This document shows, one piece after another, positions 46,647 to 55,728 of a DNA stretch of 64,000 nt. Origin of the DNA: Sphingobacteriales bacterium 46-32 (GTDB lineage Bacteria; Bacteroidota; Bacteroidia; Chitinophagales; Chitinophagaceae); assembly GCA_001898485.1 (NCBI GenBank), contig MKTY01000019.1:620001-684000 (forward strand), given 5' to 3'. The notes under the pieces were generated by a model. That model was not told the origin of the DNA, searched no databases, and saw nothing but the letters and a program-made list of their open reading frames with translations. The translations under genes and the position numbers were made by a program. The stretch's first letter is position 1. Every line of letters starts with the position of its first letter.

Positions 46647-48329
46647 CTATGCTTCATCGGTTACGCAACCTTGTGAAGCGTCTTTTACCTGTTTGGCGTA
46701 TTTAAAGAGAATTCCTTTTTTTACTTTCAGTTCGGGTTGCTGCCAGGCGGCACGGCGGCGGCTGATTTCTTCTTCACTCACCTTTAATTCCAGCTTGTTG
46801 TTGACAGCATCGATCTCAATGGGGTCATCGTCCTGTACGAGAGCGAGCAGGCCTCCGTCAAATGCTTCGGGCGTAATGTGGCCTACTACAAAACCGTGTG
46901 TACCGCCGCTGAAACGACCATCGGTGATAAGTGCTACCGATTTACCCAATCCGGCACCGATAATGGCCGAAGTCGGCTTCAGCATTTCCGGCATGCCCGG
47001 CGCACCTTTGGGGCCTACATGACGGATCACCACCACATCGCCGGATTTGATCTTGCCCGAGTTGATGCCATTGATGAGTTCAAACTCGCCGTCAAATACA
47101 CGGGCAGGTCCTGCAAAAAGCTCGCCTTCCTTACCGCTGATCTTGGCTACGGAACCTTTTTCGGCAAGGTTGCCATAGAGTATCTGCAGGTGACCTGTTT
47201 TTTTGAGAGGTTGCTCCAGCGGATAAATGATCTTTTGTGTCTCAAAATCGAGATCGGGTACAGATGCCAGGTTTTCGGCAACGGTTTTGCCAGTTACCGT
47301 CAGGCAATCACCATGCAGCAGACCTTTACTGAGCAGGTATTTCATGACAGCGGGCACACCACCATGCTGATGCAGGTCCTGCATCAGGTATTTGCCCGAT
47401 GGTTTGAAATCGGCCAGTACAGGAGTGCGGTCACTGATCTGCTGAAAGTCGTCTTGCGTCAGTGGCACATTCACACTTTTGGCCATTGCAATAAGGTGCA
47501 GCACTGCATTGGTGCTACCTCCCAGTACCATGATCACGGTAATGGCATTTTCAAATGCCTGGCGTGTCATGATATCGGATGGTTTGATATCTTTTTCGAG
47601 CAGCAGGCGAACGGCTTTTCCGGCAGCTGCACATTCTTTTTGTTTTTCTTCGCTCAGTGCGGGATTGGAGGAAGAGAAGGGGAGACTCATACCCAGTGCT
47701 TCGATAGCTGCTGCCATGGTATTGGCGGTATACATACCACCACAGGCACCGGCGCCAGGGCAACTATTCATTACAATGCCTTTGAAATCGGCTTCATCCA
47801 GCTGACCGGCTAGTTTTTGCCCCAGTGCTTCGAAAGCGCTTACGATATTCAGGTCCTGTCCTTTGTAATGGCCGGGTGCAATCGTGCCCCCATATACCAT
47901 GAGTGAGGGGCGATTGAGCCGGCCCATGGCAATGATACTTCCGGGCATATTTTTATCGCAACCAGGTATGGTAATTACACCATCGTAATACTGTGCGCCG
48001 CAAACGGCTTCAATTGAATCGGCAATTACATCGCGGCTCACCAGTGAGTAACGCATCCCTTCTGTTCCGTTGCTGATGCCATCGCTCACGCCAATGGTGT
48101 TGAAGATGAGACCAACCAGGTCATTGTCCCATACGGATTGTTTAACGACTCTGGCCAGATCATTGAGATGCATATTGCAGGTATTGCCATCGTAACCCAT
48201 ACTTACTACGCCTACCTGGGCTTTTTTCAAATCTTCGTCGGTGAGACCGATGCCATAAAGCATGGCCTGTGCGGCGGGCTGTGTTGGATCCTGCGTGATA
48301 GTCTTACTGTATTTGTTCAGTTCGTTCAT
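46647..48329 (-). CDS. ilvD: Dihydroxy-acid dehydratase
   Basis: This 560-residue iron-sulfur dehydratase makes the 2-oxo acids of Val and Ile. Cluster and Mg ligands are in [21 protein letters not shown] (~128-149) and [26 protein letters not shown] (~198-223). The C-terminal [22 protein letters not shown] and [20 protein letters not shown], with the catalytic Ser, are conserved. Its start codon overlaps the ilvE stop by 4 bp (ATGA), giving coupled translation with the aminotransferase in front. Confidence 0.96.
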
Positions 48330-49225
48330 ACGGTTTGCAAAGTGTTTTTGTAAGAAGTTTCTCTGATGGTGGCCTGGTACGCATCCTGTATCTGACGGGA
48401 TAAGGTCTCAGTCCATGGTTTGGTAAATTGTATATCGTCAACAGATGCAATGCCTATTACTTCTGCAGCAGTACCACAGAAGAAAGCTGCATCCGCTGCT
48501 TTTAATTCTTCGGGTGAGCATTTTTTCTCTTCCACCGGAATACCTGCCTGTTCGCATAATTCGATTACTGTGGCGCGTGTAATACCCGCGAGGATATTTC
48601 CGGGAGCGGGAGTGAAGAGTTTGCCATCTTTTTCAAAGAAGATATTGGCTCCGGGAGCTTCCGCGATGCAGCCATCCATATCAAGCAGAAGCGCTTCATC
48701 GTATCCGCGGACTTTGGCATCCTGGCTGGCCAGTATTGAGTTTACATAATGTCCGCCAGCCTTGGCATGAATATGAAAACCTTTGGGGTTGGGACGCTGA
48801 TACGAAGACGTACCTACGCGCAGCAGCCGCTCACCCAGGAATGGTTGCATTTCCCAGGCCTGTATAGCAAGATGAGAGACTTCATTGCGCACAAAAGACA
48901 TGTTAGCCGGCGCATACACTATAGGACGGATATAGGCATCTGCGAGATCGTTGGCTTCCAGTACTGCATAAGTAGCGTCAATCATTTCGTTGACTGTCCA
49001 GTTGCAGGGCATGTTGAGCGCGGCGGCCGACGCGAGCAGTCGCTCATAATGTGCCACTGCTTTAAATATACGTGTAGCACCGTCCGTGGTTTTATAGGAG
49101 CGAATGCCTTCAAATACGGAATAGCCGTAATGAAGCGACTGGCTGTAAAGGTCAATGCGGGCATCGCTGGCATTTACCAGTTGGCCGTCGAGCCAGAGTT
49201 TAGTATTTTCTGAATAATAAGGCAT
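48326..49225 (-). CDS. ilvE: Branched-chain amino acid aminotransferase
   Basis: This 299-residue fold-type IV PLP enzyme transfers the amino group of glutamate to the branched-chain 2-oxo acids. Motifs: [23 protein letters not shown] (~22-44), PLP Lys155 in [34 protein letters not shown] and the C-terminal GTAAEVIGI. The ATG at 49225 gives the normal N-terminus ([14 protein letters not shown]). An upstream ATG in frame at 49288 would place the coding region inside the terminator leader. As first structural gene of ilvEDBNCA it is preceded by the attenuator at 49281-49440. Confidence 0.95.
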
Positions 49226-49280: not shown

Positions 49281-49314
49281 AAAAACAAAAAACCCGCCTT
49301 TTGGGAGGCGGGTT
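49281..49314 (-). terminator. Attenuator terminator upstream of ilvE
   Basis: On the minus strand AACCCGCC (49314-49307), loop TCCCAAAA, GGCGGGTT (49298-49291), then TTTTGTTTTT (49290-49281). This is a strong rho-independent terminator between the leader peptide and ilvE, 56 bp before the start codon. Confidence 0.9.
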
Positions 49315-49356
49315 GCTGTATTTTGAATCAGTTGTTTACATACATGTACCGCCTCC
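49304..49356 (-). promoter_or_regulatory. Antiterminator pairing of the ilv attenuator
   Basis: GGAGGCGG (49356-49349), inside the end of the leader reading frame, is exactly complementary to CCGCCTCC (49311-49304), which includes most of the left arm of the terminator. The two structures cannot form together. A ribosome stalled on the Ile/Val codons (49396-49369) leaves GGAGGCGG free to pair and prevents termination. A ribosome reaching the stop codon at 49336-49338 covers it and allows termination. Confidence 0.8.
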
Positions 49357-49440
49357 GTGCGTTGCAGGAATAATAATCACCACCACAATAATAATCGCAG
49401 TTATTAAGCCAGTGATTGTATGTTTCTTTCCTGAATGCAT
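49336..49440 (-). CDS. ilvL: ilv operon leader peptide (attenuation control)
   Basis: The 34-residue frame runs ATG at 49440 to TAA at 49336-49338. It begins MHSGKKHTITGL, contains ITAIIIVVVIIIP (three Ile, three Val, three Ile in a row, read from ATT and GTG codons) and ends HGGGTCM. This is the composition of enterobacterial ilv leader peptides (VVVIIIP segment in E. coli IlvL), in the same place relative to a terminator and the ilv structural genes. Ile and Val are the end products of the operon. No Shine-Dalgarno is evident. The only promoter-like element is TATATTTA at 49465-49458, which would give a leader of ~10 nt. The symbol is by analogy, since sequence descent from enterobacterial ilvL is unlikely. 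Confidence 0.88.
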   Translation of the reverse strand: MHSGKKHTITGLITAIIIVVVIIIPATHGGGTCM

Positions 49441-49508
49441 GAAGCGTGTCTGTTCTGTAAATATACACCCGCCACATTATTAAAAGAACTTAGCATAGCT
49501 TTTTTTTG

Positions 49509-54180: not shown

Positions 54181-55728
54181 ATGCCCAACCGTTCTACAGA
54201 TGCTTTGTTTCAACTGGTAAAGTCGCTGGAAAAGAGCGAAAAGCGCAATTTCAAGCTCTTTGTGAAGCGCAATTCAGCGTCTGATGACCTGAAGATCATC
54301 CAGCTTTTTGATGCACTCGATAAAATGGCTGACTATGATGAGGCAACCCTGCTCAAAAAGAACAAGGCTATCCGCAAACAACAACTCTCGAATATGAAGG
54401 CTCACCTGTACAAACAGATACTGGCCAGCCTCCGTATTATCAAGGATGAAAATAATATTGATATTCAGTTGCATGAGTTGATGGACCATGCGCGTATTCT
54501 TTATAATAAAGGGCTCTATCTGCAAACCCTTAAGGCACTCAAACAGTTTAAAGATCTGGCCCGGGCCAATAACCAGATCAGTTACCTGCAGCAGGCTCTT
54601 TTTTTTGAAAAGAAAATTGAGGCCTTGTATATTACCCGCAGTATGCAGCACCGGGCCGATGAACTGTGTCAGGAAGCAGATAATGTCAATAGCGCACTAA
54701 CGGTAGTTAACCGACTGTCTAATCTTTCACTTCAGTTATACAGCTGGTATATCCAGCATGGTCATGCGCGCAACGAAAAGGATATGCGCAGCATACAGGT
54801 GTTTTTTCAGATTAACCTGCCACCTGAGACCGGCCGTCTCACTGGTTTTTATGAGCGGCTGTATCTCTATCAGAGCTATTGCTGGTACGCATTTATCCGG
54901 CTTGATTTTCTCCAGTATTACCGGTACTGCCAGAAATGGGTAGACCTTTTTGATACCAATCCCGATATGCTTGCAGTAGAGACAGCCAGCTATATCAAAG
55001 CCATGCACAACCTGATGAGTGCCCACTTTGACCTGCTCAATTCAGATAAGCTGGCAGCCGATATCAAAAAGTTTGAACAGTTTGCCCGTCACAAACTGGT
55101 GGCGCAAAATGATAATAACCGTATTCTAACCTATCAGTACCTGTATACAGCCCGCATTAACCTTTATTTTTTGCAGGGCACTTTTGAAAAGGGACTGAAA
55201 ATGGTACCTTTTCTCGAAGACATGCTGAAGGAATACGGCATTTACCTCGATACACACCGGGTACTGGTCTTTTATTATAAGATAGCCTGTCTCTATTTTG
55301 GCAGTGGTAATAATGAAAAAGCGATAGATTACCTCAACCGCATCATCAACCAGAAAGCCGACCTGCGTACAGATTTGCAGTGTTATGCCCGGCTGCTGCA
55401 TCTCATAGCGCATTATGAACTCGGCAACTTTGATTTGCTGGAATACCTGATCAAATCAGTGTACCGCTATATGGCCAGGATGGAAAACCTGAGTAAGGTA
55501 GAGGATGAGATGTTTGCATTTCTTCGCCGTTCGTTTCATGTGGGCGCGCATGCCCTGACTCCGGAATTTGAAAAGCTGCTGGTTAAACTCAAAAAGTATG
55601 AAGGCAACCCGCTCGAATCCCGTGCCTTTGCTTATCTCGATGTAATCTCCTGGCTCGAAAGCAAGATCAATAAGGTGAATGTGCAGGATGTGATCCGGGA
55701 GAAATATGCGCGGAGGAAAAACAAGTAA
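54181..55728 (+). CDS. Conserved Bacteroidota protein of unknown function, helical repeat
   Basis: This 515-residue, apparently cytoplasmic and almost wholly alpha-helical protein has no signal peptide or membrane segment. The N-terminus (STDALFQLVKSLEKSEKRNFKLFVKRNS) and the TPR-like helical pairs through residues ~90-480 (e.g. LYNKGLYLQTLKALKQFKDLARANNQ and YFGSGNNEKAIDYLNRIINQK) resemble a widespread Bacteroidota protein family without assigned function. It probably acts as a protein-interaction scaffold. It is divergent from leuA, 210 bp away, and followed by repeat DNA before carA. Confidence 0.8.
   Translation: MPNRSTDALFQLVKSLEKSEKRNFKLFVKRNSASDDLKIIQLFDALDKMADYDEATLLKKNKAIRKQQLSNMKAHLYKQILASLRIIKDENNIDIQLHELMDHARILYNKGLYLQTLKALKQFKDLARANNQISYLQQALFFEKKIEALYITRSMQHRADELCQEADNVNSALTVVNRLSNLSLQLYSWYIQHGHARNEKDMRSIQVFFQINLPPETGRLTGFYERLYLYQSYCWYAFIRLDFLQYYRYCQKWVDLFDTNPDMLAVETASYIKAMHNLMSAHFDLLNSDKLAADIKKFEQFARHKLVAQNDNNRILTYQYLYTARINLYFLQGTFEKGLKMVPFLEDMLKEYGIYLDTHRVLVFYYKIACLYFGSGNNEKAIDYLNRIINQKADLRTDLQCYARLLHLIAHYELGNFDLLEYLIKSVYRYMARMENLSKVEDEMFAFLRRSFHVGAHALTPEFEKLLVKLKKYEGNPLESRAFAYLDVISWLESKINKVNVQDVIREKYARRKNK

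Follow-up and report, generated by a model that had tools for sequence, protein, structure and literature searches.

Textbook attenuation is best known from enterobacteria, and the ilvL attenuator of ilvXGMEDA in E. coli K-12 resembles the element described here in having a short leader whose Val/Ile run ends in Pro. Vitreschak and colleagues are said to have named attenuators also in Bacteroidetes/Chlorobi in 2004; if that is right, attenuation in the phylum would be already known. In actinobacteria, ilvB leaders likewise combine short ORFs carrying Ile/Val/Leu runs with terminators before ilv operons, but the run overlaps the terminator hairpin there, unlike in the present case, and how these leaders regulate is described by the authors as unclear (PMC1262725). 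Nearer to hand, leader-like sORFs in Bacteroides thetaiotaomicron are mentioned in general terms in a 2020 paper (PMC7366714). The Bacteroid-trp RNA of the same phylum is a candidate cis-regulatory RNA, associated with trp by name (Rfam RF01692, PMC2864571); it belongs to another operon and is unmatched at the gathering score both in the DNA analysed here and in three trp loci (L221, L223 and L225). A search of the open-access literature found no paper on ilv leaders in Bacteroidota.

The leader and its operon

The window (the whole 64-kb stretch of DNA that was analysed, positions 620001-684000 of its contig, from a genome of 5.5 Mb) carries an ilv operon on the minus strand with leuA-C-D-B upstream on the same strand, and a short leader ORF sits on that strand between the end of leuB (49561) and the start of ilvE. 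The ilv and leu gene names are provisional, being based on general likeness and not on protein-family matches; sequences related to ilvE and ilvD were found in other genomes by protein search, and the closest named contig by IlvE (96% identical) belongs to a metagenome-assembled Chitinophagaceae bacterium. An earlier note on this DNA had described a leader of 34 codons, an 8-bp antiterminator pairing and a strong terminator just upstream of ilvE, and all three are present where it placed them (Table 1). The short ORF contains a run of codons for the operon's own amino acids, and an intrinsic terminator, whose stem ends 65 nt from the ilvE ATG, lies between it and this first structural gene. 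Arms 2 and 3 pair over 8 bp (duplex energy -18.2 kcal/mol). The terminator re-uses the CCGCC bases of the antiterminator, again as claimed, and because these bases are shared the two structures are mutually exclusive.

Table 1. Features of the leader region, in window coordinates
Feature	Position	Strand	Description
Putative -33 promoter element TTCTTTT	49482..49488	minus	TTCTTTG in many relatives (by eye)
Putative -7 promoter element TATATTTA	49458..49465	minus	TATATTYG in relatives
Candidate arm 1, CGCTTC	49441..49446	minus	Immediately upstream of the leader AUG; complementary to GAGGCG in arm 2, duplex -10.5 kcal/mol
Leader peptide ORF	49336..49440	minus	34 aa, MHSGKKHTITGLITAIIIVVVIIIPATHGGGTCM, stop TAA; run IIIVVVIIIP
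Control codons ATT x3, GTG x3, ATT x3 (Ile-Val-Ile)	49369..49395	minus	Codon reading
Arm 2, antiterminator strand GGAGGCGG	49349..49356	minus	Inside the end of the leader ORF
Arm 3, CCGCCTCC	49304..49311	minus	Common to antiterminator and terminator
Intrinsic terminator stem-loop (arms 3:4)	49291..49314	minus	9 pairs, then a T tract; independent terminator scan
ilvE	48326..49225	minus	ATG at 49225; first gene of ilvE-ilvD-ilvB-ilvN-ilvC-ilvA; ORF list

When the 64-kb window was scanned for short ORFs with residue runs adjoining a terminator, this was the sole Ile/Val module, the other three matches having Arg or Ser runs; no Leu leader before the window's leuA was seen in that scan or by eye. 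Rfam gave no match at the gathering score in the window, to a T-box or to any other described family (best sub-threshold match: Phe_leader, 22.6 bits vs the 55 required), and a scan of 15 leader loci from several operons was equally empty at that score. Matches to Phe_leader, Thr_leader and Trp_leader that fall short of the threshold were put down to a common layout.

The most satisfactory reading of this arrangement, and one that we hold with high confidence, is a classical ribosome-mediated transcription attenuator sensing charged tRNA-Ile and tRNA-Val: a decoy leader and a stop signal that very probably let the cell read its ilv genes only when Ile or Val is short. Such an attenuator could share its origin with the enterobacterial ilv leader, by common ancestry or by transfer between phyla. 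The E. coli ilvL peptide (NC_000913.3, L265; MTALLRVISLVVISVVVIIIPPCGAALGRGKA) matches the window leader at VVVIIIP and its neighbours, 9 of 10 residues agreeing there with identical GTGGTGGTGATTATTAT codons, and a like leader stands before ilvE outside the class (L262). We nevertheless think a shared origin improbable: although only 12 of 2000 fully shuffled peptides score as well as the real one, 920 of 2000 block-shuffled peptides do, so that no likeness to IlvL was found beyond the hydrophobic run, and the flanking sequence and the arms differ by eye. Nor does the comparison decide for the convergence suggested by the earlier note: such leaders occur throughout the class and also outside it, and a match that block shuffling equals so often argues for neither homology with IlvL nor convergence.

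Conservation within Chitinophagaceae

Of 147 family genomes searched for IlvE, 52 have a match at E<=1e-60, and the upstream regions were examined in 50 of these (L001 and L006-L054, the window's own included; G047, which is incomplete, and G104 were left out). A leader with an Ile/Val run and a terminator precedes ilvE in 46 of the 50 loci, and the alignments contain promoter-like TATATTYG, leader start, run, GGAGG and terminator. In the other four (L018, L032, L045 and L053) there is no leader, and leuB ends about 10-80 nt before ilvE. A covariance model built from the 46 loci finds the element in 82 of the 147 family genomes at E<=3.5e-6 (46 that made the model and 36 that contributed nothing to it) and in 99 at a looser cut-off of E<=0.01. 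The 30 best-scoring loci lie before ilvE (19), ilvD (10) or another gene (1, L077). This last locus belongs to genome G004, where ilvE directly follows leuB without a leader (L053) and a conserved leader is found about 500 kb from ilvE, before a gene resembling that at 54181-55728 of the window. Named contigs of the family found by IlvE, some of which duplicate genomes already in the 147-genome set, have the leader in 8 of the 12 cases with upstream sequence (L243, L244, L245, L247, L248, L249, L253, which is from Flavihumibacter sp. ZG627, and L256) and no leader in the remaining four (L246, L250, L251 and L255).

Co-evolution of the arms

The terminator is kept with changes on both sides. 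In the family alignment 98.3% of its cells hold standard pairs, two-sided changes occur in 6 of 9 pairs, and none of 500 shuffles does as well on each of five measures. For the antiterminator, 91.1% of cells hold standard pairs (0/500 shuffles as high) and the covariation score is equalled in 4 of 500 shuffles. Two-sided changes occur there in just 2 of 8 pairs, which 84 of 500 shuffles equal, and per-pair covariation alone is weak; the arm sequence GGAGGTGG is common to most species in this alignment. Pairing energies between whole arms are more telling: arm 2 binds its own partner at a mean of -17.30 kcal/mol vs -15.79 kcal/mol for the partners of other species, and none of 10,000 permutations is as good, with 11 of the 46 loci pairing more weakly with their own terminator than on average with those of other species. 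Both arms have changed together in four loci, where the energy with the own terminator far exceeds the mean with others: -15.9 vs -8.7 kcal/mol in L034, -17.8 vs -9.4 in L035, -19.5 vs -12.2 in L049 and -17.2 vs -11.0 in L051. The preference is kept when the set is thinned to 10 loci of less than 70% identity (0/20,000 permutations). With five deviant loci removed from that set, own pairing in the five left is no better than swapped pairing (5203/20,000), so that the evidence comes from those lineages in which the arms have changed. Arm 2 of L026 lies behind the stop codon, which indicates that the arm is kept as RNA and not as coding sequence for Gly-Gly-Gly.

A conserved frame and compensatory changes in the arms are what the earlier note had asked of relatives, and both are found: the frame in 46 of 50 loci, the compensation in the 2:3 energies and the terminator covariation. 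The antiterminator is exclusive with the terminator and conserved with compensation, and the note's core claim, that a classical Ile/Val attenuator governs the ilv operon, is supported.

Spread beyond the family and tandem leader modules

The covariance model was also run against larger groups, at E<=0.01 for the order and the class (family members included) and at E<=0.001 for the phylum. Matches were obtained in 55 of 198 genomes of the order, 78 of 395 of the class and 24 of 296 of the phylum, tallies that include many weak matches and are not counts of true attenuators. Thirty loci (L101-L130) read by eye comprise 17 ilv loci with an Ile/Val leader (for L107 the gene is assigned on no more than a weak ilvN match), four Thr/Ile leaders before thr genes, two His leaders before his genes, one Tyr-run leader and six loci without a leader (L105, L111, L122, L125, L128 and L130). 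Two further loci, L263 and L264, are weak model matches outside the class. IlvD matches 58 of 295 class genomes at 60 places, 58 of which were fetched, and a detector of Ile/Val leader-terminator modules reports at least one in 17 of these 58 regions and two in four. As controls, the 58 regions read on the reverse strand and 290 dinucleotide-shuffled ilv upstream regions of the class gave the same detector no match. It misses some modules seen by eye (the second module of L155, for example), and its match in L139, which lies inside a longer gene, is probably false. Leader peptides at class level shrink to 15-20 aa of little but I and V. Judged from these sequences, ilv genes of other families have related modules in front of them, and one such locus lies outside the class.

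Some operons have two leaders in series, each with its own terminator. Nine such loci in the class, chosen by eye and not at random, are L102, L104, L108, L113, L147, L155, L174, L180 and L186; a like pair before ilvE outside the class (L262) brings the total to ten. Between the first terminator and the start codon of the second leader lie 17-26 nt in eight of the class loci, which therefore have hardly any room for a promoter between the modules, and 102 nt in L180. Within the nine class loci each arm prefers its own terminator (-14.0 vs -9.2 for the neighbour's; 0/10,000 permutations as good).

Leaders before his, trp and thr genes

Similar leaders precede other amino acid operons. Upstream of hisG, all 12 loci of relatives examined (L189-L200), this genome's included (L196), have a leader with at least 3 His in 5 residues and a terminator, and 11 of 12 trpE loci (L221-L232), again with this genome (L223), have a WW or WWW leader and a terminator; Rfam gave no match at the gathering score in trp loci L221, L223 and L225. 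His-run leaders were also seen by eye in L115 and L121 and, outside the class, in L259. Before thrA, an ORF with a Thr/Ile run occurs in 8 of 10 fetched loci (L233-L238, L240 and L241, with L234 from this genome), but these ORFs end in or at a recurring hairpin (of the type ACAACCC..TAAGGGTTGT) with at most a weak T tail, and may perhaps work by a different, non-terminator mechanism. A YYYY leader (MISTVNNYYYYHTPQAER) with a terminator stands in L129 before a gene that starts METPIKQRKESDRAFNGK.

Spacing and proposed mechanism

The last Ile/Val codon lies 12 nt from arm 2 in 36 of the 46 family loci and 8-18 nt away in the others, a spacing that suits a ribosome footprint. With a footprint assumed to reach about 15 nt to either side of the P-site codon, a ribosome waiting at the last Ile codon leaves 49356 just uncovered, and a ribosome that has reached the stop codon hides 49356-49349. 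Folding with such a footprint gives the 2:3 helix a mean probability of 0.93 for a ribosome stalled at the last control codon and 0.00 for one at the stop codon. Helix 2:3 also wins with no ribosome at all, as long as arm 4 does not exist (0.92). In the full-length RNA at equilibrium the terminator is favoured in every ribosome state modelled (0.92-0.98); readthrough would therefore have to be decided before arm 4 is made and would need kinetic capture of 2:3.

From these features we infer the following course of events, from promoter use and leader translation to the response to Ile and Val. RNA polymerase would begin some dozen bases upstream of the leader AUG, from a promoter of the Bacteroidota type. 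With ample Ile and Val, a ribosome would reach the stop codon and its footprint would cover arm 2, leaving arm 3 free to pair with arm 4 and so to end transcription before ilvE. With Ile or Val short, the ribosome would stall in the IIIVVVIII run; arm 2 would then just clear the footprint, capture arm 3 once that is made, and let the operon be read. When no ribosome holds arm 2, the pyrimidine tract at the leader start site (arm 1) could sequester it.

The fold might instead be set without control codons, by a general slowdown of translation or by another ligand. There is a precedent of a kind in the Streptomyces coelicolor ilvB leader, where changes of the candidate regulatory codons are reported to have been without effect (PMC1262725). 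Here the distance between the Ile/Val run and arm 2 stays close to 12 nt, and the His and Trp runs in the leaders of hisG and trpE in this genome argue for amino-acid specificity, which makes codon-free control very unlikely.

Putative promoter elements and codon choice

Promoters of the phylum have a -33 consensus TTTG and a -7 consensus TAnnTTTG. A TAnnTTyR motif precedes 43 of the 46 family leaders, and in 42 cases its distance from the start codon is 22-30 nt. The window also has a GC-rich stretch, GGCGGGTG, at 49466-49473 on the minus strand, directly before the -7 box; it recurs in many relatives and may be a protein-binding site.

Codon choice in the 46 family leaders was compared with that in the ilvE genes of the same 46, a set of related sequences that are not independent of one another. 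Relative to their own genomes' ilvE, the leaders avoid GTA for Val and prefer GTC and GTG (GTC 31% vs 9%, GTA 14% vs 40%; p 3e-25), and ATT accounts for 68% of their Ile codons vs 43% (p 8e-14). GTG is the sole Val codon of the window's leader, and ATT serves for 6 of its 8 Ile. This bias would agree with tuning to tRNA charging, and the needs of RNA structure could also explain it. That the ORF simply encodes a small hydrophobic membrane protein, with a terminator that merely ends leu transcription or insulates ilvE, is scarcely credible, since the charged N-terminus and long hydrophobic run kept across the family, which would suit it, stand against the co-evolution of arm 2 with the terminator arm, an arm 2 behind the stop codon in L026, a choice of Ile and Val synonyms unlike that of ilvE, and class-level peptides only 15-20 aa long with little but I and V.

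A candidate arm 1

For the attenuator, the earlier note had found no 1:2 hairpin obvious. The pyrimidine tract 5' of the AUG (CGCUUC) does pair with arm 2, and with support that does not extend to every relative a 1:2 helix is not clearly absent; arm 1 is likely but not settled. Folding of the family leaders as far as arm 2 shows GGAGG pairing chiefly with bases 1-11 nt upstream of the start codon in 37 of 46 loci, and complementarity to arm 2 along the leader peaks just before the start codon, with a weaker second maximum at +20 to +25. The position of the folded partner led us to reject a local 1:2 hairpin involving the Pro codon (CCU). The mean probability of arm 2 being paired is 0.83, vs 0.72 when the upstream parts are shuffled (Wilcoxon p 2.7e-5); in 8 of 46 loci pairing falls below that of the locus's own shuffles. 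Own 1:2 pairs are better than all 10,000 permutations, and in the thinned set 65 of 20,000 permutations do as well. In two loci the candidate arm has shifted along with arm 2 (CTCCTC facing GAGGAG in L034, CCTCC facing GGAGG in L049); it is weak in L015, L019, L037 and L042. The script-picked start codons are doubtful in L051 (an internal start) and in L035, L015 and L019 (GTG or TTG), and the arm 1 rows for these four loci are unreliable for that reason. At equilibrium and without a ribosome, 2:3 outcompetes 1:2 (1:2 probability 0.06), so that arm 1 could act only before arm 3 is made. Arm 1 is placed where ribosomes load onto the leader, so that an incoming ribosome would probably compete with it.

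Comparison with known systems

The locus would extend textbook attenuation to the ilv operon of a Bacteroidota genome, with no Rfam family matched, and the 46 aligned natural variants with compensated arms offer material for working out the rules of timing and footprint. A bolder proposal, on which we find ourselves evenly divided, is that leader-peptide attenuation is a main control of amino acid genes (ilv, his, trp and perhaps thr) throughout Bacteroidota, built on the promoter type of the phylum and working without a clear Shine-Dalgarno sequence, that arm 1 coincides with the ribosome-loading site of the leader, which would make reloading a step in the switch, and that several families place two complete Ile/Val attenuators in one transcript. 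The naturally doubled attenuators raise the question of why a cell would place two alike sensors in series; if the proposal holds, the stop probabilities of attenuators in series should be multiplied, making the response steeper than with a single one. The Salmonella mgtCBR leader, with tandem attenuators on two short ORFs that probably control transcription (PMC3641672), is like the doubled ilv leaders in layout, but its operon is not amino-acid biosynthetic, whereas both modules of the Bacteroidota tandems carry Ile/Val runs.

Beyond its leader peptide, the E. coli ilvL attenuator is like the present one in its GC-rich terminator with a T tract and in an arm near the end of the ORF that is complementary to a terminator arm (by eye). 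They differ in the distance from the last Ile codon to arm 2, about 6 nt there (by eye) vs 12 nt here, in the number of Leu codons, four there vs one here, and in the operon that follows, which unlike ilvXGMEDA has ilvE as its first gene.
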